This document shows, piece after piece, positions 39,947 through 52,383 of a stretch of DNA of 52,383 nt (position 1 is its first letter; each line of letters opens with the position of its first letter). The DNA lies in the NCBI RefSeq assembly GCF_001467895.1, contig NZ_LNYO01000027.1, positions 23,599-75,981 on the forward strand. The letters run 5' to 3'. The notes beneath the pieces were generated by a model. The model made no database searches. It saw only the letters and a program-made list of their open reading frames with translations, and was not told the DNA's origin. A program made the position numbers and the translations under genes. The stretch is from Legionella nautarum. Lineage in GTDB: Bacteria > Pseudomonadota > Gammaproteobacteria > Legionellales > Legionellaceae.

Positions 39947-41113
39947 TTAATCGGTTTCTCCCAGCCCTAGATCCCTAGAATTTTTATTTAATTGATTTTT
40001 CGCAGGGTATAAGCCTAAAAAGTTGGAATCCTTAGTCAATGACGAGGATTTCGCTATGAATTTCTCTTTCAATAATTCGTCTTTCGACATTTCCGAAGGA
40101 AAATGCTTTGAAAAATCCAATAGCAATTTGGCGGTCATTAGACTGTTATCTTTATTGGGCGAATCCGCGTTTTTAGTATGTTGTTCAAACAGTTTTTTAG
40201 CCGTCTTATAAAAACGATTTTTAACGGCATGATTGCGTAATTGTCTTTGTTCTTTACCCGTATCGGCTGATTGCTTAGAGAGAAGCTCTTCTTGGACTCG
40301 TTTTGCTAAGGCTTTATCGACTGCGGGTATGACATTGCGATTTCTCATCTGAACTAAAGGTGATTTTAAGGACTGGCCTGCAAGTCCTCTTTCAAAGCGA
40401 CGGCTTGCCTCAACCATGAGTCCATGTTCGCGGCACTTTTTAGCAAAGTTTTTGCGCAGCAAATGAAGGTATTGTTTTCGTGGATTTAATTTATAACCTT
40501 CTACAGAGCGTAAACAAATCACTGAATGGATATGTGGGTGTTCAGTATCATTATGAGCTACAAATAAATAATCATGCTGACCGCCGAATTCTTCTTGTAA
40601 AAATTCTCTCGTTAGTTGTTTAAAACGATCGCGACAAGTATTAGGAGGCGCGCTTAATACCATATGCATCGTATTACGTGAATTTTTATGATGATCAAAA
40701 TAGATAGCATTCCAAGAAGATAATAAATCATTCGATTCTTCTGCTGAATGAATCAATGATTGTTCTTGATCTTCTGCTGGCAAATCAAAATCACGAGTAA
40801 TATAAGCTAAGTGTTTATAGATTTTATCTAGACCCTTTCCAAAGCTTGTAATTTTTAAAATCGCTTGCTTATATCCTGAAGCAATGCGAATGAGATCAGC
40901 CGTTGATAATTCGTACTGCGAAGAGTTACTGGCTGTATGATAGCCATACTTAATTTCCTTAGTAATTCTCGTGCGTTTCTGGATCGTTTTTTTAGATGAT
41001 TTTACAGAATGAGCATTGTCGTTTTCGTTATAAGCATGCGAATGGATAAAACGTCGAGATTTACCTGCATCATCTAATAAACCGTCTTCTAAATCATCAT
41101 TCATAGTGATCAT
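39947..41113 (-). CDS. Relaxase (VirD2/MOBP-like)
   Basis: The 388-aa protein has the three-histidine metal site as HPHIH at residues 192-196 within HNDTEHPHIHSVICLRSVEG. An N-terminal catalytic-Tyr region (ILKITSFGKGLDKIYKHLAYITRD, about 85-108) and a motif NTMHMVLSAPP follow the MOBP pattern. It would nick oriT and stay bound to the transferred strand. At 388 aa it has no helicase or primase domain. The TOPRIM protein at 34567 may supply that function. It overlaps the MobC-like gene by 17 bp. The start may be at 41104 instead. Confidence 0.85.
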   Translation of the reverse strand: MITMNDDLEDGLLDDAGKSRRFIHSHAYNENDNAHSVKSSKKTIQKRTRITKEIKYGYHTASNSSQYELSTADLIRIASGYKQAILKITSFGKGLDKIYKHLAYITRDFDLPAEDQEQSLIHSAEESNDLLSSWNAIYFDHHKNSRNTMHMVLSAPPNTCRDRFKQLTREFLQEEFGGQHDYLFVAHNDTEHPHIHSVICLRSVEGYKLNPRKQYLHLLRKNFAKKCREHGLMVEASRRFERGLAGQSLKSPLVQMRNRNVIPAVDKALAKRVQEELLSKQSADTGKEQRQLRNHAVKNRFYKTAKKLFEQHTKNADSPNKDNSLMTAKLLLDFSKHFPSEMSKDELLKEKFIAKSSSLTKDSNFLGLYPAKNQLNKNSRDLGLGETD

Positions 41114-41486
41114 GATTAACCGCTTCCTGATATCTGGTTATCGTTCGCATAATATAGTTTTTTAGACTAGCATTCACTTCTTTTACATGAGATAAGACAT
41201 CCTGTAAATAGTCATTGGAAAAGCGATTGTTAAGTTGATCATTTTGATGCAGTTTTGTAGTAATTTGATTTAAGTTTCTAGCAATCCCTGTGAGTTGTCT
41301 TACTGCTTGTCTAAACTCGTTTAATTCTTCATGAGTTAAATCAGGACCAAAGCCAATATAATCTCGTAATAATTTACGGATTAATCGACTTTTATTTGTC
41401 TCACCAAATAATAATAAACTGACAGATTCAGCCTGTGTCCATTCTTCATCAGTTAATCGCACACGAATCGATTTAGTTTTGTTCAT
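41097..41486 (-). CDS. mobC: MobC-like ribbon-helix-helix relaxosome accessory protein
   Basis: This 129-aa protein has the RHH-like start SIRVRLTDEEWTQAESVSLL and the MobC hallmark ELNEFRQAVRQLTGIARNLNQI at about 60-82. It binds oriT and helps open the DNA for the relaxase encoded immediately downstream. It is transcribed away from the putative oriT at 41487-41720. Confidence 0.85.
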   Translation of the reverse strand: MNKTKSIRVRLTDEEWTQAESVSLLLFGETNKSRLIRKLLRDYIGFGPDLTHEELNEFRQAVRQLTGIARNLNQITTKLHQNDQLNNRFSNDYLQDVLSHVKEVNASLKNYIMRTITRYQEAVNHDHYE

Positions 41487-41720
41487 AGTCTATTTGTGTC
41501 CTTCTAAAGTATTTAGACCGCAAGCCGAAAGGTTGAGGAAATAGTCGCGTTTTGCGACTGGCGATGTGATATTTTTTTAAAATGTCCCACACTTCGCCTA
41601 TCCCGCAAATACTTAACTTATGCCACTGAATATATTATAATAGTTATAGAAAATTTGAGCTAGAACTATCATCTTTTTTAAAATTAGTTGGCTGAAATTA
41701 ATTGATAAAACAGGAGGGTT
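41487..41720. other. Probable oriT region
   Basis: This non-coding stretch lies directly upstream of the mobC-relaxase pair, where MOBP oriTs usually are. It holds a hairpin AGTCGC-GTTTT-GCGACT (41543-41559) and, further on, CCTATCCCGCAAATAC (from about 41597), which loosely recalls the YATCCTG-type nic region. The phrase TATTTAGACC at about 41506 recurs at 42897. The exact nic site cannot be assigned by eye. Confidence 0.5.
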
Positions 41721-41726
41721 AGTGCA

Positions 41727-42218
41727 ATGGATAATTCACAGAAAACCGATTTAGAGCAAATTTATAAAACCCCCTATATTGATAGGCCTGCGCCAGGATA
41801 CTACCCTCTAGTAAGAGCTAAAAAAAATAAGCTATCCCTTCCTTATATAACGGATTTAAGTATCTATTTTTTTAAGGAGCGATTATCAATTGATACCGTA
41901 ATTAAAGAATTAACTTTTGCATTAGTGGCCTTAGCAACCTATCTTTTCATGCAATATACAGGTCGCCTCACTTCACTAAAAGGCTTTGGAACTTTCATTG
42001 GTGCAATGCTAGTATTTTCTCTCTTTTATAACCTCTATAAAGCTGCATTTAAATCATTGGCACCAGGATTAATTTGTATATGCTTTGGTCTTTCCTTGTT
42101 AACCACCAAGTTACATCAACAATTTTTTATTTTTTTATCAAAAGAAACGATTGAATATATTATCGGAGGAGGGGCTTTTTTTGTTGCATTATCACTTTTA
42201 AAGAGTGAAGTTTATTGA
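41727..42218 (+). CDS. Small polytopic membrane protein
   Basis: This 163-aa protein has a soluble N-terminus (about 1-50, with YIDRPAPGYYPLVRAKKNKL) and four hydrophobic segments (about 61-75, 86-103, 110-128 and 140-158). AGGAGG lies nine bases before the ATG, a strong ribosome binding site. I do not recognise the family. It is transcribed away from oriT and could be a leading-region gene or an entry-exclusion protein, but this is guesswork from position. Confidence 0.65.
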   Translation: MDNSQKTDLEQIYKTPYIDRPAPGYYPLVRAKKNKLSLPYITDLSIYFFKERLSIDTVIKELTFALVALATYLFMQYTGRLTSLKGFGTFIGAMLVFSLFYNLYKAAFKSLAPGLICICFGLSLLTTKLHQQFFIFLSKETIEYIIGGGAFFVALSLLKSEVY

Positions 42219-42635
42219 CGTTTAAACATTATAATTGTATTAAAAATTAAACGATGAAAACATCAAGAAATAAAGAGGTCATGTTATTCTATAAGAGTAA
42301 TAGTATTTAGTTGCTGCTAACAACCATTCATCGAATTGTTAGCAGCAGTACAGTATTCAAATCAGCAAGCCGTAGCATTTGTATTACCCCTAGCCGCTAC
42401 CGCAATCGAGTCCGTAATTTCGCACCAACTAGGAAATCATCTTTTGCTAATCTATCCCGCAGCATTTTTTCAAACTATGATGGAGTTGGATTGATTAGCA
42501 TTTCAATTTCAGTTTTCTCTATTGATTAAAAAATAGTAAAATGTTTTGAATCGCTAAACCAGAGATGCAGTCGGAAATTTTAATCTATAGCTCAAAATAC
42601 AATAGTCAATGATTAACTAACCCTACAAAATAAGG
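42219..42635. other. Intergenic region with a 12-bp inverted repeat
   Basis: Perfect arms TGCTGCTAACAA (42312-42323) and TTGTTAGCAGCA (42336-42347) flank a 12-nt loop. No U-tract follows. The rest holds no reading frame I trust. An open frame at 42311-42529 begins inside the repeat with a low-quality, Ser/Arg-rich sequence. Confidence 0.5.
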
Positions 42636-42641
42636 ATGCCA

Positions 42642-42893
42642 ATGATAAAAACACTTTGTAGTGCCCCATTTGTAATTGCAATCACAATTATTCTTCTATT
42701 CGTTTTTTATTTAACAGGATTAGAATCTAATCCTCAAGACATCCTGGCCACTGCTTTCAAACCACTATTGGTTGGGTTCATGGGGCTGTTTTCCCTACAA
42801 TGTTCGTATATTGGACCGCTTCATTTTTCATCAATCGACTGTAAAACTGAATTTGTTTTAAGTAGTTACAGCTTGGGCCTTGCGCAAACCTAG
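42642..42893 (+). CDS. Short two-TM hypothetical protein
   Basis: This 83-aa product has two hydrophobic segments (FVIAITIILLFVFYLTG and LLVGFMGLFSLQCSYI) and a short polar tail. AAGG precedes the ATG at 42642. An ATG six bases earlier is also possible. It is unrecognised, and the abrupt tail suggests it could be a truncated remnant. Confidence 0.4.
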   Translation: MIKTLCSAPFVIAITIILLFVFYLTGLESNPQDILATAFKPLLVGFMGLFSLQCSYIGPLHFSSIDCKTEFVLSSYSLGLAQT

Positions 42894-43026
42894 GGATATT
42901 TAGACCTTCGGGTTGAGTGGGGCTTAGGGATTATTGGCACATCCACTAACCTGTTTGGAGAAAAACACATTCTGATTACTATAGTTAGATCTAATACCGT
43001 AGGTATTTGCAGTCTAAATAAATCTA

Positions 43027-43054
43027 AAAGCCCCGAAGGGCTTTCATTTTTTTT
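43027..43054. terminator. Intrinsic terminator, probably bidirectional
   Basis: AAAGCCC-CGAA-GGGCTTT is a 7-bp stem with a tetraloop followed by CATTTTTTTT on the plus strand. On the minus strand the hairpin is followed by TAGATTTATTT. It serves the plus-strand gene ending at 42893 and the convergent minus-strand gene ending at 43053. Confidence 0.85.
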
Positions 43055-44105
43055 AATTCTTTTCAAGAATTTTTAGACTTGGTTTAATAAAATGCTCATA
43101 ACTGAATGCTGCGTTTAAGGTAAATTTTCGCACCCATGCATTATTTCGATTTCGTGAAAACTTAAATGCTTTTTCTTTTAGGAGAGTTCTAATTTCCTCG
43201 CTTGGCTTGAAACCAAAGTGAATGCAAATCTTTTGATCGTCACTAATTGTTACCTTAATCCCATTTTCAAACTCATCATCTATCGTTTTAGAATTTGTCT
43301 TTTCTACCTCCGCTATTCTTTTTTTATAACGATTAATATTAGCCCCTAAATTTTGCAATTCCCATCGTTTAAAACCTATAATTTTTCCATAATAATTTGG
43401 TTCCAATAAGTCTGCTATTTGTATTTCATTTAAATTGAATTCAGTGTGTAATAGGTTTTTAAACTCTCCTAGATTTTCTGGTGATATATCTGGACAACCA
43501 TTTTTAAAATACTTTCTGATCAGCTTGTTGATAGCCTTCATTTCTTCACGTTGGGCTTCTAATTTCTCAATTTTATTGTCGATTTTGTCACAAGCGTTTG
43601 GATCGTCTATCTGGATTGATGAACCGTCACCATAAGGCAAGACAAATTTTAAAATATTTTTGATGGATTTTTTTCTAAACTCATCAATTGCAGTCAGCTT
43701 AGCATCAGCATAATTAGAAAGTTTTTGATTTCTTGCAACTGGAAAGTTTGCGGGTCCAACGATGAAACTTGATGCAACCTTTGCATGAGAGTGTAACCAG
43801 GAGTTATAGCAATCACATAATTTTTCCCGATGTGATTTAAACCATTCATCGAACATAACACCAAAATCTTGCCGCACTTCCGCCCCTCTTTGCGAGGATT
43901 TAGAAATCTCATCCAGTACCTTGATCTTGTCTTCAAGAAGGGCTTCTACGTACTCAGCCCTTACATTTACACCTCTTTTTTCTGGCGAGAAAGAGGTATT
44001 CATAAAGGCTCGCTCTGCTATTTCTTGGCGAATATCGTTAAGAAATGTTGAAGCCTCTGGTAGGCTTTGAATCAGTTCATTTTCTAAATTTTTTACGTAG
44101 TTCAT
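43053..44105 (-). CDS. Hypothetical protein with DUF3560-like C-terminal segment
   Basis: This 350-aa soluble protein is largely helical. The middle has a Lys/Glu coiled coil (KIDNKIEKLEAQREEMKAIN, about 165-190). The C-terminal 50 residues (ICIHFGFKPSEEIRTLLKEK, then AFKFSRNRNNAWVRKFTLNA) match the motif often found at the end of plasmid-borne DUF3560/antirestriction-associated proteins, where an FSR..NAWxRKLT core recurs. The function is unknown. It is divergent from the gene at 44274 and shares its inverted-repeat promoter. Confidence 0.6.
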   Translation of the reverse strand: MNYVKNLENELIQSLPEASTFLNDIRQEIAERAFMNTSFSPEKRGVNVRAEYVEALLEDKIKVLDEISKSSQRGAEVRQDFGVMFDEWFKSHREKLCDCYNSWLHSHAKVASSFIVGPANFPVARNQKLSNYADAKLTAIDEFRKKSIKNILKFVLPYGDGSSIQIDDPNACDKIDNKIEKLEAQREEMKAINKLIRKYFKNGCPDISPENLGEFKNLLHTEFNLNEIQIADLLEPNYYGKIIGFKRWELQNLGANINRYKKRIAEVEKTNSKTIDDEFENGIKVTISDDQKICIHFGFKPSEEIRTLLKEKAFKFSRNRNNAWVRKFTLNAAFSYEHFIKPSLKILEKN

Positions 44106-44175
44106 CTTTTTAGATCCTTATTTTGTTTTCTGATGTTCTTAATGAACAGGATTATTATTACAAAAATCCGATATT

Positions 44176-44243
44176 AAGTCAACAAAAAACAACTTTTTAA
44201 TAGTTGTTTTTTGTTGACTTTTATTGTGGTGCTATTCCATAAT
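44176..44243. promoter_or_regulatory. Shared divergent promoter on an 18-bp perfect inverted repeat
   Basis: The arms AAGTCAACAAAAAACAAC (44176-44193) and GTTGTTTTTTGTTGACTT (44203-44220) are perfectly complementary around a 9-bp centre. Each arm ends in TTGACT, a -35 box. On the plus strand TTGACT is followed after 18 bp by CATAAT (44238-44243). On the minus strand TTGACT is followed after 16 bp by TAATAA. One bound protein could therefore control both genes symmetrically. Confidence 0.75.
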
Positions 44244-44273
44244 TCGACAATCAATACCTTGGAAATCGACCTG

Positions 44274-45101
44274 ATGAAAAAAGTACTCCGCTTTGAAATG
44301 AAGCAAAATTTACGTAGACCAACACGTATTTATGTGAAATCACCTGATCTGAAAACCAGCTATGGCTATTTTCATGCGGACAATCCTTCATCGTTTGATG
44401 GATGGAGCCAGCTCTCCGAAGAGCAGACCACTGAATTGGTTTTGTTTATTCAAAACATTGAAGCAATCAATGCCTTGTTAGGGAGTGAGGCCAGTAATAA
44501 ATTGATGGATTTTCGATTTCGCCTACCTATTGATTTTGTAGCAACCTTGCATGAATTGACATCACTTTTTAATCACCAGAACATTAAATATAATTTTTTT
44601 GAGGCAGCCTTAACTGGAATCATTCAACAGATGAAAATGGCCACCGTGCAACTAAATGATGAAAAAAAACAGCAAGCATTAACCTTATTGGATAAAATAG
44701 GACTGGCCACCTATAAAAAGCTCGATCTCACCTCGCCTCTTCAGGCTGTCTTTTCTGAGCTTTTGGCAGTTCATAATAAATCTGAAAAACTACACAAGAA
44801 AGCCTTAGCCCTATTTGATAAAGATAAAAGTTACTCGCCTAAAGCCATTGAAGGAATGGCCAGTGGTGAATCACAACCTGCAAAATGGTTAGTAGCCTGT
44901 GCTATTGATGTATTAATTGAGGAACGCTTACCAATTTTAGAAAGGTGTTTAAACGACAATGAGTTGTTTTTATTATGGGCAAAACCGCTTTTAGACCACC
45001 AATTTAATCGGGAGTTATTGCTCAACAAAATACGCGCCCTTAGCTGGCATAGCATGGAACAAATCGTAGTCTCCTATCACCCCAAAGCCCATCCATCATG
45101 A
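44274..45101 (+). CDS. Hypothetical helical protein
   Basis: This 275-aa soluble protein starts MKKVLRFEMKQNLRRPTRIY. It contains a helical core without recognised motifs (LDKIGLATYKKLDL, then LIEERLPILERCLNDNELFL). I preferred the ATG at 44274 over a TTG at 44211, because the latter lies inside the promoter inverted repeat. Divergent from the 43053-44105 gene and likely co-regulated with it. Confidence 0.6.
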   Translation: MKKVLRFEMKQNLRRPTRIYVKSPDLKTSYGYFHADNPSSFDGWSQLSEEQTTELVLFIQNIEAINALLGSEASNKLMDFRFRLPIDFVATLHELTSLFNHQNIKYNFFEAALTGIIQQMKMATVQLNDEKKQQALTLLDKIGLATYKKLDLTSPLQAVFSELLAVHNKSEKLHKKALALFDKDKSYSPKAIEGMASGESQPAKWLVACAIDVLIEERLPILERCLNDNELFLLWAKPLLDHQFNRELLLNKIRALSWHSMEQIVVSYHPKAHPS

Positions 45102-45104
45102 ACA

Positions 45105-45746
45105 CTACTCAGCTTTCGCTTTCCTATCAATATTATGGAATAACCTATTAGCCTCAGTCGCGTTAATTTGTTTCATTCTTATTTTAAATTCAGATTCGCT
45201 GAGTCGTTGACCTTGATCCAATTCAAATCGGCTCACAGTAGCAGCGGGGCGAGTAGTATCCGCCTTTTCCCAAGTGACCCTCAAAAGGTATTTGTCTCGT
45301 ATTTTTGTATAGATAATATGCGCATACAGAGTATCATCATTAAAAAATTTCCTATAATCGATCCAATCTTGTGAATTTTTATCAATAGACCAGCAAAATG
45401 ATTTTATCTGACACTCTTTATAACGACTTTTCCCCTTGAATAAGTCATTTAAAAAGTTTTTAAGCCCCTGATTTCCAAAATAAGTATGCCCTTCATCACC
45501 ATAATGTTTAAAAAACAGTTCTGATAAGCGTTCTGTTGGACTTTTTTCAGTCACAAAAAAATAAGGCCAAAAAATGGGCTTGAGAATCAAATACCGCTTG
45601 AGATCAGGTCTTTTAAGCAGTAAATCCTGGTTATAATAGGTGTTAAAACGCTGGAAATTGAGAAAGCTCTTGATAGAATAACTTAAGGTAATTAATCCTC
45701 CAACCACATACAACACTACCAAAAACTCGCCTACGCTTACATCCAT
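45105..45746 (-). CDS. Membrane-anchored hypothetical protein
   Basis: This 213-aa protein has one N-terminal TM (FLVVLYVVGGLITLSYSI, about 8-25) and a possible second hydrophobic patch (YLILKPIFWPYFFV). A soluble domain follows with Trp/Tyr-rich beta-like stretches (FCWSIDKNSQDWIDYRKFF, YLLRVTWEKADTT). No family recognised. It converges with the 44274 gene, with only three bases between their ends. Confidence 0.6.
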   Translation of the reverse strand: MDVSVGEFLVVLYVVGGLITLSYSIKSFLNFQRFNTYYNQDLLLKRPDLKRYLILKPIFWPYFFVTEKSPTERLSELFFKHYGDEGHTYFGNQGLKNFLNDLFKGKSRYKECQIKSFCWSIDKNSQDWIDYRKFFNDDTLYAHIIYTKIRDKYLLRVTWEKADTTRPAATVSRFELDQGQRLSESEFKIRMKQINATEANRLFHNIDRKAKAE

Positions 45747-45903
45747 TACCTACCACCAGGATTCTAAAGTAAAAAATAATCAAAGGATTTGAAATGATGG
45801 GCTATTATAACATTTAGGAGCAAATGACGTACACTGCGATTCAGTTACATAGTGCATTCTGTTAAAATCACACCCTATGGCAAACACCAACAATTCTCCG
45901 TAT

Positions 45904-45991
45904 TTGATTTTGAGCACAGTCGGGTTATAATATAACTAACCATACCCGCCACGCCTCTTCACAATGCGGACCAGGGCGGGTTATTTATTTT
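45904..45991 (+). ncRNA. Promoter and short hairpin leader RNA before the Abi gene
   Basis: TTGATT (45904-45909), a 16-bp spacer and a perfect TATAAT (45926-45931) form a strong promoter. The transcript would start near 45938 and fold ACCCGCC (45944-45950) onto GGCGGGT (45975-45981) around a 24-nt loop. A U-rich TATTTATTTT follows, a terminator-like end, just at the Abi start codon, which has no clear ribosome binding site. It could be a roughly 55-nt RNA that ends before the gene or a translational control leader. Confidence 0.55.
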
Positions 45992-46891
45992 ATGCATTTA
46001 AAAATGGTTTTTAATGAACCACCTCTTTCCATACCAGAACAAATCCATCATTTACGACAGAAAGGGCTATTGCTGGATGACGAACAAGAAGCCAGCCATT
46101 ATCTAACAGTCATTGGTTATTACCGCTTAAAGATTTATTCTAAACCCTTTCTCATAAGCTCTGAGACAGGCATCAGCCAATTTAAACCCAACACGCGATT
46201 TTCCGATCTTTTAAATTTGTATGTCTTTGACAGAGAGTTGCGTTTATTGGTTACCGATGCCCTAGAGCGAATAGAAGTCTCTTTTCGTACCGCCATATCT
46301 AATGCGATGAGTCTGAAATACGGTGCGCACTGGTATCTGTGCGCTGATTTATTTTCTTCAATCGAGCAGCACCAAATGTTTCTTGAAGAAGTCAAATCAC
46401 ATCTAAAACGCTCACACGAAGACTTTATTAAAACCTATTATGCCAAATCCCATGAACCCGAACACCCACCAAGCTGGATGGTCATGGAATGCATTTCTTT
46501 TGGTACGATATCCAAGCTCTATGCCAATATTAAAGACCGAACTATCAGAAAAGAAATTGGCGATACGCTTGGGCAATATAGCGAAATCATCAAATCATGG
46601 ATGCGCTCACTGACCTACACCAGAAATTTATGCGCGCACCATTCTCGCTTATGGAATCGATTCTTCGTCAATAAACCTAAAGTCCCAGAGATTAGAGTAT
46701 CTTTTAATCACAACGAGAGTCCTTTCTATCTGCAAGCCTATATTATTCACTCGCTATTAAAAAACAGCGCGCCAGGCAATCACTGGCGAGATAAATTACT
46801 TCATCTTTTTAAAAATAATTCCTCTATCCCCTTTGCAAATATGGGATTTTCAGAAAATTGGGAACAAGACGGCATATGGGGGTTGGAATAA
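45992..46891 (+). CDS. Abi family (AbiD/AbiF-type) HEPN protein
   Basis: This 299-aa protein matches the Abi_2 family: IPEQIHHLRQKGLLLDDEQE, then YLTVIGYYRLKIYSKPF, YVFDRELRLLVTDALERIEV and the HEPN RNase motif RNLCAH (Arg211, His216, in YTRNLCAHHSRLWNR). Such proteins abort phage infection, probably by RNA cleavage. The preceding hairpin RNA and the absence of a ribosome binding site suggest control by the leader. A second start at 46004 is possible. Five bases separate it from the DUF3987 gene, so the two may be co-transcribed. Confidence 0.9.
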   Translation: MHLKMVFNEPPLSIPEQIHHLRQKGLLLDDEQEASHYLTVIGYYRLKIYSKPFLISSETGISQFKPNTRFSDLLNLYVFDRELRLLVTDALERIEVSFRTAISNAMSLKYGAHWYLCADLFSSIEQHQMFLEEVKSHLKRSHEDFIKTYYAKSHEPEHPPSWMVMECISFGTISKLYANIKDRTIRKEIGDTLGQYSEIIKSWMRSLTYTRNLCAHHSRLWNRFFVNKPKVPEIRVSFNHNESPFYLQAYIIHSLLKNSAPGNHWRDKLLHLFKNNSSIPFANMGFSENWEQDGIWGLE

Positions 46892-46896
46892 ATAAT

Positions 46897-48390
46897 ATGA
46901 ACCCCAATGAATCAAGTCTCCTAACACCAGAAAATGACATCCGCTGGGAACATCCAAGACCTCTTTTGCCCGCATTGGAGCCAGAAACACATTATCCCGC
47001 ACAAGCGCTTCCCTCTATCCTTGGAAAAGCGGTAACCGCTTATCAAGGTTACGGTCAGCAACCTACAGCATTGGTTGCCTGCAGTGCTTTAGCGAATATT
47101 TCACTGGCTTGCCAAGCGCTTGCCAATGTCGCAAGAGATAAGTACTTAATAAGCCCTGTTTCTCTTTATTTTTTAGTAGTTGCCCAATCAGGCGAGCGCA
47201 AGAGTGCAGCCGATAACGTGTTTTCAAAACCCTCACGATCCTGGGAGTTAGAGATCAGAAAAAATCGCGAACCGGATGTTCAGACTGCATTAACCTTACA
47301 TCAAGCCTGGCAAATGGAGCGCGATGGTTTGTTGAATCAGATTAAACGCGCCATGATGACGGGTGAAGACACTACTTTTTATAAAGACCTTTTGGCACGA
47401 CTCATTCGCATTGAGCCAGATATTCCATTATTACCAACTCTCTATTTTGAAGACGCAACTCAGGAAGCCCTGGCCATCCATTTAGCTCGTGGTTGGCCAA
47501 GTGCTTCATTGTGGTCTGATGAGGCAGGTATTGTATTGGGCAGTCACAGTATGCAGTCAAATCCTGCTCGCTTTGTTGCTCTACTCAATCGTTTATGGGA
47601 TGGAAAAGCCTTTACGGCACACCGCAAAACCACAGACAGCTTTACCCTGCAACATCGGAGGCTTACCTTAAATCTCATGATGCAACCTTTGTTGTTGCAA
47701 ACAATGACCAATCAGCATCAAAATATTAGCCGACAAAGCGGTTTTTTACCCCGTTGTCTGCTCGCCTACCCTAAAAGTGCCATGGGTGTTCGATTCTATC
47801 AAGAGCCACCTGACTCAAAAGCCTACCTCGATGGCTATGAAATAAGAATTACTGACTGCCTGAATCAATCGCTAAATTTAAACAGAAAAGGATGTCATAA
47901 GCTCCCCGCCCTTTTTATGAGTATTGAAGCAAAACGAACCTGGGTGCAATTTTTTAATGCGATTGAGTCTGGGCTAAATTATCAGGGGCAGTGGGCAGGA
48001 CTTCAGGATTTTGCTAGTAAAGCTGCTGAAAACGCAGCACGGCTTGCCGCTCTTTTTCATTTGTTCGAAGGAAAAATAGGCGATATTGGTTCTGAATCGA
48101 TGGAGCAAGCCATTGAGATCATTCATTGGCACATGAAAGAAACAAGGCGATTATTTGATGCAGGAAATCAAACCAATGAACTGGCCGATGCACAAACACT
48201 GTTTCAGTGGCTTAAGGATAAGGGATTGAATCAAATCACCGCACGCGATATTCAACGTCTAAGTCCATTACGTAATATTGAGCGCCGTGATAACGCTATC
48301 GGTATTTTGATTGAACATCAGATGGTACGATTAACCAAAGAAGGAAGCAGAATCATACTGGAATTAAATCCCCTTTGTTTTCATAATTGA
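46897..48390 (+). CDS. DUF3987 (YfjI-like) replication-type protein
   Basis: The 497-aa protein has the family pattern: an N-terminal Pro-rich segment (WEHPRPLLPALEPETHYPAQ), then QGYGQQPTALVACSALANIS, the P-loop-like VVAQSGERKSAADNVF and Walker B-like SLWSDEAGIVLGSH. A helicase-like C-terminal region and a small winged-helix end follow (LADAQTLFQWLKDKGLNQIT). These proteins are common in phage satellites and ICEs, where they are thought to act as primase-helicases. GGA about 8 nt before the ATG at 46897 supports this start over 46858. GCGAC repeats follow directly downstream. Confidence 0.8.
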   Translation: MNPNESSLLTPENDIRWEHPRPLLPALEPETHYPAQALPSILGKAVTAYQGYGQQPTALVACSALANISLACQALANVARDKYLISPVSLYFLVVAQSGERKSAADNVFSKPSRSWELEIRKNREPDVQTALTLHQAWQMERDGLLNQIKRAMMTGEDTTFYKDLLARLIRIEPDIPLLPTLYFEDATQEALAIHLARGWPSASLWSDEAGIVLGSHSMQSNPARFVALLNRLWDGKAFTAHRKTTDSFTLQHRRLTLNLMMQPLLLQTMTNQHQNISRQSGFLPRCLLAYPKSAMGVRFYQEPPDSKAYLDGYEIRITDCLNQSLNLNRKGCHKLPALFMSIEAKRTWVQFFNAIESGLNYQGQWAGLQDFASKAAENAARLAALFHLFEGKIGDIGSESMEQAIEIIHWHMKETRRLFDAGNQTNELADAQTLFQWLKDKGLNQITARDIQRLSPLRNIERRDNAIGILIEHQMVRLTKEGSRIILELNPLCFHN

Positions 48391-48410
48391 AATCCGATTA
48401 TCATTAAATC

Positions 48411-48682
48411 TGCGACACCGCGACACTTGCGACACACCAAGGCGTAATGGGTAAATTCTTTATTAGAGATTCATAATATTGACCGATGGTTTATTTATGC
48501 GGCATGCAAAACAAGTTCTATTGGCGATGGTCAAAATCCTTTTGATAAAACCCAAACACCCAATTTTGAGCAAGATCTATCCGTTTTGAATAATGAAGCT
48601 CATTAAATAATTTGTGAATTGTTATTACATCGGAGATAATGCCAAATCAAATGGACTTAAATTTTGCGACAGCTTGCGACTT
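48411..48682 (+). repeat. GCGACA direct repeats and a broken reading frame
   Basis: GCGACAC occurs three times within 48411-48438 and TTGCGAC twice in 48664-48680. Between them, 48447-48605 is open for 52 codons without a start codon (WFIYAACKTSSIGDGQNPFD, then QTPNFEQDLSVLNNEAH). It reads like a decayed protein end. The repeats may be binding sites for the DUF3987 protein or origin iterons. Otherwise 48391-48740 contains no gene. Confidence 0.5.
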
Positions 48683-48740
48683 AAATGATTAAGATACACC
48701 GTTTTTCAATACAAGACTAAAGTAATGTTGGGTTTTTAGT

Positions 48741-48946
48741 GCATATCCAGACTAAACTGGCAATGTCGAAAAAAAACTTTAAAAATTAACACAAATTATA
48801 AATGCTAAGGATTAAATTTGTAGATCTATAATCTGATTCGTTATTCTTAGAGCCATTGCTGACGCCTCGAAACAGCTAAATTATAAACATTCATTACAAA
48901 TGATGAATCAAATTATTGTTCCATTGCCAGTTTAGTCTGGATATGC
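48741..48946. mobile_element. 206-bp MITE-like element with 25-bp perfect terminal inverted repeats
   Basis: Bases 48741-48765 (GCATATCCAGACTAAACTGG plus CAATG) are exactly the reverse complement of 48922-48946. Between them lie 156 bp of AT-rich DNA without an open frame. Each end contains a small dyad CCAG-N6-CTGG. No target-site duplication is evident in the flanks. Size, perfect ends and lack of coding capacity fit a miniature inverted-repeat element mobilised in trans. It lies 63 bp upstream of the FRG-domain gene and could influence its expression. Confidence 0.8.
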
Positions 48947-49009
48947 GGAATCAGAACAATATGACCTTGCAATTATTGTCATTTACTATGATTAATATGG
49001 AAAAGTAAA

Positions 49010-50044
49010 ATGAAAAGCTATTACTTTGATTCATTAAAAAAACTAATTCCTTTTTTAGAAGCTCTTTCGGGACGGGGGTATTTTTTTCGAGGTCAACGAG
49101 ATGCAATTCAATGGAAAGTAATTCCTAGTATTTTCAGAAAAAATCGACTTGATGAGTATATAAAAAAAATACAAGTTCCCGCTTCTTACTATTCATATCC
49201 ATTTAATGAATCTGTAGTAAAAAAATGGTTTAATTGTAATGAAATTCTAGAGTTTGTGAGCTTAACTCTTTATAAGAATAAAAATAAAATTCGATGTTTT
49301 GAGCAATTACCCCTCAAAATTCAGAGATTATTTGAATTGGGGACAATCTTATTAAGATATAATTTTTATCTTGGCCTCTATGTTAGTCAAAATCCAAACA
49401 ATCATCTCTTTGATAAGAATACTTCATCTCTTTCTGAAATTATTCCTTATCAAGTTTGGGCGACAAAAGATAAATTCATTGGCTATATTCAATATGCTCT
49501 ACCCATATTATTAGATATAAATTTGCTGGATGGAACTATCTACCAAAAAGGGAGCCACGATAATGTTATCACCGGTTACAATCAAACATTCCCCCAACAC
49601 TACGATTTTCCAACAGCAGCAGTAGACGTAACTACATGCTATTTGGTTGCTCTACATTTTGCTACTGATGGTGGAGATAAAATCGACTCTACATGTTTTT
49701 CAGTTTATGCTTATAAACAACTAGATCTTTCTGATGAGGCTCCCTGCTTTCTTTATAATAATGATGAGCTTAAATCTAATATACGTGCTCAAGCACAAAA
49801 AGGCTCATTTCTTTTTTTCAGAAATCCCTGCACTCATTATTTAGAAACAGGAGAATTTCCAAGTTTGGATATGTTAGTTAATCACTGCATAAATAATCAC
49901 CTACAACCTTTTGCAGATGTAATTAAAATTAATGTCCCTTATTCAAATTATGTACTAGCTCCTCTGCGTGAGCTCTTGATAACTAATGACATTAGTAATA
50001 AAACGTTAAAACCTGATATTGCTAATATGCCCGTATTGATTTAA
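49010..50044 (+). CDS. FRG-domain protein
   Basis: The 344-aa protein carries the FRG signature GYFFRGQRDAIQWKVIPSIF at residues about 23-42. The second conserved block FPQHYDFPTAAVDVTTCYLV (about 196-215) is followed by ALHFATDG, and a late FLFFRNPC matches the family end. Its biochemical role is unknown. FRG proteins often occur in defence islands, and this one sits beside an Abi gene and a recombinase. No TM or signal peptide is seen. Confidence 0.8.
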   Translation: MKSYYFDSLKKLIPFLEALSGRGYFFRGQRDAIQWKVIPSIFRKNRLDEYIKKIQVPASYYSYPFNESVVKKWFNCNEILEFVSLTLYKNKNKIRCFEQLPLKIQRLFELGTILLRYNFYLGLYVSQNPNNHLFDKNTSSLSEIIPYQVWATKDKFIGYIQYALPILLDINLLDGTIYQKGSHDNVITGYNQTFPQHYDFPTAAVDVTTCYLVALHFATDGGDKIDSTCFSVYAYKQLDLSDEAPCFLYNNDELKSNIRAQAQKGSFLFFRNPCTHYLETGEFPSLDMLVNHCINNHLQPFADVIKINVPYSNYVLAPLRELLITNDISNKTLKPDIANMPVLI

Positions 50045-50160
50045 GACAGGGGTTCAATTATGTAACACGAATCAGGGAACTCATCGTTTGACATAATTTT
50101 GATTGTGGCCTGGTGTGTCAGACTTCCAAAGCTAAAAGCAAAATTTTAAATACTGTTAAT

Positions 50161-50415
50161 TTATTTTTCAAAATAACCACTATCTAAGTCATTTTTAAAG
50201 TCTAGTGGCCAGTTAGTTCCATGCCCAGTTTTATATTCTCTTTCTTTGTGACTTGAATTTTTAGTGATCGATATTATTCCCCAATCAAAGTATTCTCCTG
50301 TTTGTGGATGAGGAGGAGAAGACGTATCTTTATAATTTAAGGTAAAATCTTTAATATTGAACTGACCCTCAATGGCACATTTAAAATCTCTCATAACATC
50401 ATTTGGAATATTCAT
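50161..50415 (-). CDS. Small hypothetical protein
   Basis: This 84-aa acidic protein (MNIPNDVMRDFKCAIEGQFN; Trp/Tyr-rich middle with EYFDWGIISITKN) has no recognised family. AGGAGA lies six bases before the ATG, a strong ribosome binding site, so the gene is probably real. It is transcribed in the same direction as the recombinase upstream. Confidence 0.6.
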   Translation of the reverse strand: MNIPNDVMRDFKCAIEGQFNIKDFTLNYKDTSSPPHPQTGEYFDWGIISITKNSSHKEREYKTGHGTNWPLDFKNDLDSGYFEK

Positions 50416-50474
50416 TTATATCTCCTAATTATCATGAGTATTTTGAGTTACGTTGTTGAAATAACATACGGTAA

Positions 50475-51482
50475 TTAAGTAAATAATTCTTCTATAGTAG
50501 ACTGGATTTCATCTTGACTCGGTTTAGCATAACGAAAAATTTCTTTAATGGAAACATTACCACTTAACTCTTGCGCAAAATGAACCCCATGCTTATCGGT
50601 TACTTTTTTTAAAAAGGTATGTCGCAATTTATGTGGAGTAAATTCAAACTTTTCATGTTCCGGTAAAAACGCCAAAGCCTGCTTTAAAACCCGTTGGCAA
50701 ATCCGGTACACATCCAAAGTTTGTAGACGCGTACCATACCTTGTTATAAATAACGGTTCATCTTGTTGGGCTTCTCTTTTTTCAAGATAGTGATCTAAGT
50801 ACCCCCTACTCTCTTGGGGTAAAGGAATTTTTTGACTAATGCGTTTTGACTTATGACGTAGAACTTCACACAAACCTTTTTGTCGATACTGCCCCACATT
50901 TAAAGAGACGATTTCAGATTCACGAAGTCCAGTGCCAAGCAACAGATAAAATAAAGCGGTTTCCATTAGTGGATTTTGGTTTTTGCGGGTACAACTTTTA
51001 ATTCGTTGCTCGCAAGCAGACTTTAACCTCATTAATTGGCGTGAAGTTAGGCCATTCCAATCAGGCGCATCAGTTTGTAAATCTTTAACTTGAGCAAGGG
51101 GGTCCCCTGCTAACAAGGGTCGTTGTTGATGAAGCCATCGACCTACGTGACGAATAGTTGCCATCGTGCGATTAATAGAAGTTGCTTTGTATGGTTTTCC
51201 GGTTTTTTCAGAAATTGTCTTAGATAAATTTTTTTGGAAATGTTTGCTAACTGCCGGTGTCCAACTATCAACCCAATCATGCCCTATTTCGTTTTGGAAA
51301 AAATGAATAAATTTTGCTAGGTCTTTCATTTTGGCTTGTTCAGTTTTTTCTGGAGCACCTTTCACATGCACTGAGTAATAATAGGACAACCACGCTGAAA
51401 GTGAATTGGTGTCAAAATGAACATCCAAGGGATGGAAAATCTTATCTATCACAAACTTCCGATTTTTTTCATTTTCATTCAT
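50475..51482 (-). CDS. Tyrosine recombinase / integrase
   Basis: The 335-aa protein has an N-terminal SAM-like domain (WLSYYYSVHVKGAPEKTEQA) and a catalytic domain. The catalytic domain contains Arg187 in GTGLRESEIV, His284 and Arg287 in TPHKLRHTF, and the nucleophile Tyr318 in IFRYAKPS. The second conserved His (LGH in relatives) is Asn309 (LSGNVSI), an unusual change. The Met at 51482 was chosen over a TTG at 51512. It could integrate this region or resolve multimers. No tRNA or obvious att site lies nearby. Confidence 0.85.
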   Translation of the reverse strand: MNENEKNRKFVIDKIFHPLDVHFDTNSLSAWLSYYYSVHVKGAPEKTEQAKMKDLAKFIHFFQNEIGHDWVDSWTPAVSKHFQKNLSKTISEKTGKPYKATSINRTMATIRHVGRWLHQQRPLLAGDPLAQVKDLQTDAPDWNGLTSRQLMRLKSACEQRIKSCTRKNQNPLMETALFYLLLGTGLRESEIVSLNVGQYRQKGLCEVLRHKSKRISQKIPLPQESRGYLDHYLEKREAQQDEPLFITRYGTRLQTLDVYRICQRVLKQALAFLPEHEKFEFTPHKLRHTFLKKVTDKHGVHFAQELSGNVSIKEIFRYAKPSQDEIQSTIEELFT

Positions 51483-51548
51483 TTGTGGAACCCAATGAAT
51501 TCCTGAGATCAATAATTGGCATTTTACCTATTTTTAATGGTTTGTGAA

Positions 51549-51612
51549 AGATAAGGTAAGTTATCTATCTCAAAATAATAATTTTCAATCTGACTCTGTT
51601 TCTTATTGAGAG
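51549..51612 (+). promoter_or_regulatory. Operator candidate and promoter start for the toxin-antitoxin pair
   Basis: AGATAA-GGTAAG-TTATCT (51549-51566) is a perfect 6-bp-armed dyad upstream of the pair, and TTGAGA at 51607-51612 could be the -35 box with an A/T-rich -10 about 18 bp further on. An autoregulating XRE antitoxin would be expected to bind a dyad here. Confidence 0.35.
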
Positions 51613-51656
51613 TCTGTGATATATTTAAATTATATAAAATCTTGTATATTTAGTTA

Positions 51657-51968
51657 ATGAAACCTATAATTTGGTTAGGCAGCAGTTATAATGACATATT
51701 GGACTTTCCTAAAGAAGCAAGACAATCTGCAGGATATAATCTGGATAAAATTCAAAGAGGCCAAGAACCAACTGATTGGAAACCCATGACATCGATTGGG
51801 CAAGGTGTTAAAGAAATCAGGATTCATTGTGACAATGAATATCGAGTCATTTATTTAGCCCAGAAAGATGAAGGCATATATGTGCTTCATTCCTTTGTAA
51901 AGAAAACACAAAAAACAAGTAGCAAAGATCTTGAGTTGGCTAAAAAACGATTTAAACAAATACCCTAA
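51657..51968 (+). CDS. HigB/Gp49-like toxin
   Basis: This 103-aa protein belongs to the phage Gp49/HigB-type RelE-superfamily toxins: DILDFPKEARQSAGYNLDKI, then VKEIRIHCDNEYRVIYLAQK and YVLHSFVKKTQKTS. Such toxins cleave mRNA at the ribosome. No ribosome binding site is evident before its ATG, whereas the antitoxin gene 21 bp downstream has a strong one, which would favour excess antitoxin. The toxin-first order is typical for HigBA. Confidence 0.85.
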   Translation: MKPIIWLGSSYNDILDFPKEARQSAGYNLDKIQRGQEPTDWKPMTSIGQGVKEIRIHCDNEYRVIYLAQKDEGIYVLHSFVKKTQKTSSKDLELAKKRFKQIP

Positions 51969-51988
51969 CGCAGTTAGGAGGAGAAGCA

Positions 51989-52279
51989 ATGATGAATCAT
52001 ACAACTACAGGTAGTGTTTTTGATGATTTAGGATTTAGTGAATCTGAGTCAGAAAATTTAAAAATTAGAGCAGCATTAATGCGAGCAATAGAAAAATATA
52101 TTGCTGATAAAAAATTGACACAATCTCAAGCAGCAAAATTAATGCATGTATCACAGCCACGAATCAGTGATTTGATTCGTGGTAAAATTCATCTTTTTAC
52201 TATTGATATGCTCGTGAACATGCTGGCATGTACCCATGCATCCATTTCACTTGTTGTTAATGAACAAGTAGCTGCATAA
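51989..52279 (+). CDS. HigA-like XRE antitoxin
   Basis: This 96-aa protein has the XRE helix-turn-helix LTQSQAAKLMHVSQPRISDLIRGK (about 43-66, listed here as the HTH positions) and the following LFTIDMLVNMLACTHASISL typical of antitoxins partnered with Gp49-like toxins. GGAGGAG sits eight bases before the start. It neutralises the upstream toxin and probably represses the operon. The pair would stabilise the replicon by post-segregational killing. Confidence 0.88.
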   Translation: MMNHTTTGSVFDDLGFSESESENLKIRAALMRAIEKYIADKKLTQSQAAKLMHVSQPRISDLIRGKIHLFTIDMLVNMLACTHASISLVVNEQVAA

Positions 52280-52323
52280 ATGGGAGCCATCAAAACTGAC
52301 GTTGTCTAATAGATCTGTACACG

Positions 52324-52383
52324 CCAGTTAAGAGATAATGTACTTAACTGGAGAAAGTAATGATGATAAGAAAGAAATACCCC
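52324..52383 (+). CDS. Start of a probable transposase gene, cut by the window edge
   Basis: An ATG at 52360 with GGAG (52350-52353) begins MMIRKKYP, similar to the basic starts of IS3-type OrfA proteins. Only 24 coding bases are visible. Just before it, CCAGTTAAG (52324-52332) pairs perfectly with CTTAACTGG (52343-52351) and would hide the ribosome binding site, a known way for insertion sequences to avoid read-through expression. The identification as a transposase is a guess. Confidence 0.35.

Follow-up and report, generated by a model that had tools for sequence, protein, structure and literature searches.

An AbiF gene and its upstream hairpin RNA in Legionella nautarum as a probable toxin-antitoxin module, and solitary copies of the RNA in phages

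The window analysed here is a stretch of 52,383 nucleotides from Legionella nautarum (contig NZ_LNYO01000027.1, positions 23,599 to 75,981 of the forward strand), and we investigated an AbiF (Abi_2) gene in it together with the small abiF RNA that lies directly upstream on the same strand. Most likely, the locus is part of a plasmid and forms a type III-like toxin-antitoxin and abortive-infection module, in which a single hairpin would serve as both antitoxin and attenuator. Judged by its sequence, it is a new member of the published kind of RNA-antitoxin/HEPN-toxin pairs and not a new system. The same RNA was also found without the gene in phages from several unrelated families, and we regard this as weightier than the window locus, which is ordinary and well kept. 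The features of the locus are as follows.

45904 to 45931, plus strand: sigma-70-like promoter TTGATT-16-TATAAT, with 10 of 12 consensus matches and hexamers kept in relatives.
45937 to 45944, plus strand: 5' leader TAACCATA, outside the Rfam model, which begins after the leader; conserved across loci.
45945 to 45981, plus strand: abiF RNA (RF03085), from the Rfam match, covariation and 36/37 identity with the L. hackeliae copy.
45945-45950 with 45975-45980, plus strand: outer stem, GC-rich.
45952-45954 with 45966-45968, plus strand: inner helix of the abiF RNA fold.
45955-45965 and 45969-45974, plus strand: loop and 3' bulge of the abiF RNA fold.
45981 to 45991, plus strand: U tract, probable intrinsic termination site, directly on the stem and T-rich in relatives.
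46004 to 46891 (alternative start 45992), plus strand: gene for the AbiF/Abi_2 HEPN ribonuclease (RNase) toxin, from PF07751, PADLOC and PDB 8vz6.
46622 to 46639, plus strand: HEPN catalytic motif RNLCAH (R211 and H216 counted from 45992), aligned with R210/H215 of 8vz6.

The preliminary description had predicted an RNA of about 55 nt with a GC-rich stem and a U-rich end, and such an RNA was recovered as a match to RF03085 (39.2 bits against a gathering cut-off of 37; E 0.0011 over the window and 4.2e-6 over 201 bases), with the U tract behind its outer stem. In the window sequence, the outer stem is followed directly on its 3' side by TTATTTATTTT. The segment 45938-45994 folded at -15.9 kcal/mol (z -2.28), and 4 of 200 shuffles folded equally well. 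The hairpin was identical to that of L. hackeliae at 36 of 37 bases, compared with approximately 81% for the surrounding 1.75 kb block. At least five T among the 10 bases 3' of the stem were present at 66 of 67 loci, with a mean of 7.2 T versus 2.6 in upstream control windows. Stem covariation was strong: 99.4% of 507 cells were paired, and six of nine pairs carried double changes (30 double-changed cells), in an alignment that was fitted to the model and is thus biased towards the structure. None of 500 shuffles scored as high, and sliding the partner destroyed the signal. The 3' bulge of the window RNA reads GACCAG, and its A and C (motif positions 26 and 27) were invariant in 16/16 RNAs; we infer that it corresponds to the bulge reported for the PbAbiF RNA. 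As separate observations, one locus (L069) carried two abiF motifs, and Rhodobacterales-type loci (L022 2958-3003 and others) showed by eye a second small hairpin with a Shine-Dalgarno (SD)-like loop that seemingly abuts the AbiF start.

To assess the association between the RNA and the gene, a covariance model (R1) was built from 16 RNAs, including that of the window and three from plasmid loci, and run over 89 sources: the window, eight plasmid loci and 80 loci chosen by their protein only (the best 80 of 588, not dereplicated). A second model (R2) was built from the R1 matches. R1 gave 85 matches up to E 5 in 597 kb on both strands, all within about 150 bases upstream of AbiF and none elsewhere, some of them being mirror matches on the minus strand. 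Among the 80 protein-selected loci, 59 carried a plus-strand R1 match of at least 17 bits and 66 an R2 match at E 0.05 or below; the covariance search across Abi_2 homologues thus bore out the proposed conserved upstream RNA. Within a sample of 22 Legionella genomes, Abi_2 was found in nine and RF03085 in five. At class level, 19 of 274 genomes carried RF03085, 11 of them above the cut-off, and at phylum level R2 matched in 7 of 299. With filters off, R1 gave 20.9 bits at locus L118 and at best 13.5 bits at L120, where the match lies on the minus strand like its gene.

As had been claimed, the gene encodes an AbiF-type HEPN protein: PF07751 (Abi_2) matched with 185.3 bits against a cut-off of 25.6, over the full domain (profile positions 1-184 of 184), and PADLOC labelled the gene AbiD. 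Its sole relative among PDB sequences at E 0.01 was 8vz6 (E 1.5e-46, residues 5-296), which a figure legend in PMC12737573 gives as the PbAbiF-RNA complex. R211 and H216 align with R210 and H215 of 8vz6, the catalytic R and H were invariant in 58/58 aligned proteins, and the R210A+H215A variant of PbAbiF was reported to be inactive (PMC12373285). By homology, the AbiF of the window is a HEPN RNase. The annotated L. hackeliae relative begins at the equivalent of 46004. Apart from this, plasmids of three bacteria (L006, L009 and L330) were seen to carry AbiF within a type I restriction locus, with hsdS ahead of it and a DEAD/DEAH helicase gene behind, or flanked by an hsdM-like methyltransferase gene and hsdS.

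We then considered the promoter and the leader. The claimed promoter motif is present, and its -10 recurs in relatives; its consensus score by itself was within chance. A scan found three promoter-like sites compared with 4.1 (standard deviation 2.1) in shuffles, and a promoter call from the consensus match alone was rejected as not above chance. The call is supported because the -10 recurs in relatives and because L. hackeliae and L. maioricensis keep both hexamers unaltered. A -10 matching at five or more of six positions, 16-26 bases 5' of the hairpin, was present at 16/62 loci versus 4% of control windows, and its position across homologous loci peaked 18-21 bases ahead of the hairpin. The RNA probably starts near 45938. 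A leader of the form YAAYA within 11 bases before the hairpin was found at 38/46 dereplicated loci (4% of control windows), and an A at -6 relative to the hairpin at 44/46; the window carries the variant TAACC.

The preliminary description had also stated that the gene lacks a ribosome binding site, and no SD core (AGGA, GGAG or GAGG) outside the hairpin was found ahead of start 45992 or 46004. As a special feature, this absence was rejected: an SD core outside the hairpin preceded 16/67 AbiF genes and 61/203 control open reading frames (ORFs) (Fisher p 0.35), and such a core stood at the first start of 14 of the 36 other ORFs in the window that reach 120 amino acids. The duplex with the anti-SD sequence at start 45992 reached -7.1 kcal/mol, likely because the scanned stretch includes the G-rich 3' arm of the stem. 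Median duplex energies with this arm counted were -5.5 for AbiF genes, -3.9 for first-start controls (p 0.011) and -5.2 for best-start controls (p 0.60), and this comparison, misleading because of the counted arm, was replaced by the SD-core count that leaves the hairpin out. The first in-frame ATG, GTG or TTG lay 3-52 bases past the hairpin, once 89, and within 12 bases at 16/67 loci.

These features agree with a type III-like layout, in which the RNA stands directly upstream on the same strand and the promoter is assigned from consensus and recurrence in relatives, that is, from sequence only. In the proposed mechanism, one promoter would give rise to an RNA of about 50-55 bases consisting of the conserved AA-rich leader, the abiF hairpin and the U tail. 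The U tract behind the hairpin would stop most transcription and release free antitoxin RNA, while rare read-through would supply AbiF mRNA. AbiF, a predicted HEPN endoribonuclease and probably a dimer, would be held inactive by one RNA per monomer, as in its relatives. If the plasmid is lost or a phage shuts off transcription, the RNA supply would drop, leaving AbiF free to cut RNA and stop growth. One hairpin would thus double as antitoxin and attenuator. Published work on relatives is consistent with this scheme. AbiFCd of Clostridioides difficile was reported to be toxic, and its RNA, RCd22, to lower expression in cis, neutralise in trans and bind the protein; stem-breaking mutations abolished RNA activity, pair-keeping swaps did not, and AbiFCd was held down by termination in cis (PMC12373285). 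For PbAbiF, one RNA per monomer was described, with bulge nucleotides C32 and U38 blocking the enzyme (PMC12737573). Papers place the AbiF toxin-antitoxin kind at the root of Cas13. The suggested toxin-antitoxin-like design is therefore well matched, with a conserved upstream RNA, strong covariation and a published relative that is toxic and neutralised by its RNA. The window locus would broaden this kind by a compact layout, with antitoxin and probable terminator in one hairpin. We found no description of such a fused layout in a literature search of incomplete coverage, and it may already be in print.

Several results weigh against this module as we read it. R2 found no RNA at 14 of the 80 protein-selected loci, at some of which a hairpin and a T run are visible (by eye, unscored), nor did it find one where the phages Javan5 and LMC carry AbiF (L142 and L143). 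The intact Abi_2 locus L119 of the genus had no match with either R1 (filters off) or R2; by eye, L119 and L120 both have hairpins and T runs. The 11-base loop and 6-base bulge are unlike a textbook terminator, and a terminator scan of the window did not list the hairpin, probably because it allowed loops of only 3-8 bases. Furthermore, C. difficile phage phiC2 has two motifs without a U tract, followed by a separate hairpin with a T run; its locus has a ribosome site.

Other explanations of the RNA were weighed against the same data. The U tract might instead belong to the bound antitoxin or be a site of processing, with AbiF cutting its RNA out of a longer transcript. AbiF was indeed reported to process its own RNA (PMC12737573), and copies with one T in 10 bases, that is, without a U tail, occur in four of 14 named phages; the tail composition over 66 loci (72% T versus 9% A) and its beginning at the stem, as in intrinsic terminators, speak against this explanation, which we hold to be rather unlikely. 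Distinctly less probable is an RNA that is only a cis attenuator, a leader terminator that never binds AbiF. Such a role would suit a U tract that adjoins the stem and is soon followed by a start codon, yet the letters of loop and bulge recur across distant groups, and a terminator needs none of that. Moreover, the RNA is found alone in phages, and the C. difficile RNA acts in trans and binds its protein (PMC12373285).

A guide function, in which pairing through the loop would aim AbiF at a target, is suggested by the Cas13 kinship drawn in papers and by loop lengths that differ between groups. This role for the loop is disfavoured by loop letters that recur across groups; several of the longer loops resemble hairpin extensions by eye, and no direct repeat family of at least 18 bases (seed 12), as in a CRISPR-like array, was found in 40000-52383. 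We give the guide explanation hardly any credence, and retain the antitoxin that is also an attenuator as the preferred reading.

To examine the RNA independently of the protein, 31 bacterial loci were collected by RNA alone, without dereplication. AbiF stood directly behind the RNA in 22 of them (in one, only its C-terminal part) and was absent in nine. R1 at E 0.01 recovered the RNA in eight of these nine; that of L105 was below the Rfam cut-off and was not found by R1 at this threshold. Two of the nine (L092 and L111) show an apparent decayed AbiF start behind the RNA. Others, with ORFs read by eye and families not scanned, are located within type I restriction loci (L095, L098 and L101), beside AbiEi/AbiEii-like pairs (L096 and L110 in one genome, and L105 with its weak RNA) or near a relaxase gene (L102).

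Solitary RNAs were also found in named phages. Fourteen phage regions were picked from blastn listings of 33, 97 and 93 records (up to E 10, many probably chance), and R1 recovered the RNA in all 14 at E 3e-4 or better, in Javan132 only as model positions 7-30. Eight passed the Rfam cut-off (Acj61, S-SZBM1, S-CREM1, PZL-Ah8, CGphi29, LittleE, S-SRM01 and RHEph21), SNW-1 was under it, and the other five were unlisted by Rfam at E 0.05. Abi_2 was found in none of the 14 records. According to record taxonomy, these phages span Straboviridae, Kyanoviridae, Autographiviridae, Herelleviridae and others, T4-, T7- and SPO1-like phages included. Phages of these three kinds are generally lytic. S-CREM1 is lytic according to a published abstract. 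In three cyanophages, a transfer RNA (tRNA) gene starts 4-5 bases past the RNA, and some phages have the RNA within a tRNA array. In the T7-like PZL-Ah8, a T3-type promoter with three mismatches ends 17 bases before the hairpin, and a second, differing at two positions, precedes the major capsid gene; none was found in shuffles. These were the two matches of the T3 pattern in locus L325, where a search with the full T7 promoter pattern gave nothing. A 37-base hairpin is identical in Aeromonas phage PZL-Ah8 and Salicola phage CGphi29, and over 49 bases the PZL-Ah8 RNA shares 90% identity with one that stands directly ahead of an annotated Abi family gene on a Pseudomonadaceae plasmid. As a side observation, the tRNA-rich stretch of Bacillus phage phiNIT1 that holds its abiF-like RNA also contains a skipping-rope RNA (RF02924, 46.8 bits; L328 2494-2564).

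Viral contigs were surveyed with two RNA patterns, which gave at least 120 stretches (pattern 1) and 63 (pattern 2). Nearby AbiF was sought within 250 bases at E 0.001 with a hidden Markov model of the window's clade. Among the viral matches listed, at least 168 places in at least 167 loci, seven places had AbiF within this distance, three were cut off and 158 were without; these 158 had no AbiF elsewhere in the fetched locus either, and three of them (L273, L283 and L293), with at most 4/6 stem pairs, look like chance matches. AbiF adjacency thus differed between bacteria (22/31) and the listed viral places (7/165; Fisher p 3e-16), in samples drawn differently. The reversed control pattern with the same letters gave no match, and Abi_2 was absent from the 38 whole viral records examined among those behind the listed loci; these records may be fragments.

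The four outer stem pairs are not part of pattern 1. Among 69 dereplicated solitary RNAs from the matches listed, all four formed in 52 at nominal spacing and in 65 if the best of six spacings was allowed, compared with 18.7 (standard deviation 2.7, maximum 27) for re-dealt 3' arms at nominal spacing. The fourth pair was C-G in 22, G-C in 36, A-U in seven and U-A in four. AAYA preceded the hairpin in 43/69 (11% of control windows), and five or more T followed it in 54/69. A -10 of at least 5/6 at the expected distance was present for 18/82 viral RNAs versus 4%, and 18/82 lay inside an ORF of at least 100 amino acids versus 79% of random positions. When one protein from each of 10 viral loci was compared with PHROGs, eight matched, four of them as portal, tail, tail fibre and endolysin. 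In tRNA-bearing loci, 9 of 15 dereplicated viral RNAs lay within 500 bases of a tRNA against 33% at random, a modest excess; no tRNA was detected in the loci of the remaining 54 of 69. Comparison by eye of the 3' bulges from a few RNAs of phages and bacteria gave no clear host match.

We lean towards the view that solitary phage abiF RNAs may be mimics that disarm host AbiF, and that the solitary bacterial copies in restriction or toxin-antitoxin loci may be anti-addiction RNAs. Phage mimicry by pseudo-ToxI against ToxIN was shown (PMC3475682), and solitary-repeat RNA anti-CRISPRs were described in a paper according to which some phages mimic antitoxin RNAs (PMC10651486). For abiF itself, one small RNA in S-CREM1 and three phages in Rfam were noted (PMC9964418), a review calls the role of phage abiF small RNA unconfirmed (PMC12197685), and the available text of PMC13187072 does not mention AbiF. 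Within our limited coverage of the literature, we recognised no proposal of solitary abiF RNAs as AbiF decoys. Counting against such decoys, several phages have a weak U tail or none (one T in 10 in S-CREM1, S-SZBM1, LittleE and SNW-1), the leader is missing by eye in some phage RNAs, and an encounter of any phage RNA with AbiF in its own host is putative. If the decoy role is true, phage abiF RNAs would be a widespread RNA-only counter-defence, would reveal which phages encounter AbiF in nature and would provide natural variants for studying how antitoxin recognises toxin. A decoy kept by phages would also be indirect evidence that AbiF defends; in C. difficile, its anti-phage activity was reported to be hard to demonstrate (PMC12373285).

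The surroundings of the window locus were also inspected. The window carries VirB/Trb transfer genes, a relaxase gene, a ParA-like gene and a UmuC-like gene, which point to a conjugative plasmid or conjugative element. The RF03085 match is the only one in the 3.65 Mb genome at E 0.001. The RNA, the AbiF gene and most of a divergent upstream gene form the 1.75 kb block of about 81% identity shared with L. hackeliae plasmid II (NZ_LN681226.1, abiF RNA at 1140-1176), L. maioricensis and L. saoudiensis; it stops five bases past the AbiF stop codon. The upstream gene (45105-45746) was rejected as an AbiF partner, having matches in 8/22 genus genomes, some of them fragments, and no clear tie to AbiF; no ORF of at least 100 amino acids was listed for it in L. 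maioricensis and L. saoudiensis. In the same genome as the window, a 161-base remnant (L003, C10:48023-48184) matches window 46494-46654, which encodes the HEPN catalytic end, at 97.5% identity, and another genome of the genus holds a different AbiF fragment (L127). Within the window, there are a near-perfect palindrome with 22-base arms one base apart (44176-44220), a perfect 25-base inverted repeat (48741-48765 and 48922-48946, separated by 156 bases) that may mark the termini of a small mobile element, an FRG-domain protein matching PADLOC PDC-S15 models (49010-50044) and a Gp49/HTH_37 pair resembling a HigBA-type toxin-antitoxin (51657-52279). In L. hackeliae plasmid II, a counterpart of the stretch 44105-44215 (73%) likewise immediately precedes the module. 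A Legionella israelensis plasmid (L005 2565-2659, minus strand) has a RAGATH-13 ribozyme match of 76.1 bits against an 80-bit cut-off.

Among known systems, AbiFCd/RCd22 of phage phi027 shares with the window locus an abiF motif before an Abi_2 gene, a sigma-A-type promoter, co-transcription and the RxxxxH HEPN motif; according to PMC12373285, its RNA contains the motif twice and the locus has both a distinct terminator and a ribosome site, whereas in the window the stem of a single motif runs straight into the U tract and an SD core is lacking. PbAbiF-AbiFr (PDB 8vz6) is homologous over residues 5-296 with aligned catalytic R and H, and comes from a different phylum.

The toxin family of ToxIN is not known to be related to AbiF. 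ToxIN with phage pseudo-ToxI is comparable in that an RNA antitoxin opposes an endoribonuclease and a phage RNA mimic frees the phage; ToxI is described as repetitive (PMC3475682), whereas the abiF RNA of the window is a single hairpin. The Racr RNA anti-CRISPRs, as described in PMC10651486, derive from CRISPR repeats and not from an RNA antitoxin, and share with the solitary abiF RNAs the use of a lone phage copy of a defence RNA element as a decoy, in the case of abiF a putative one.
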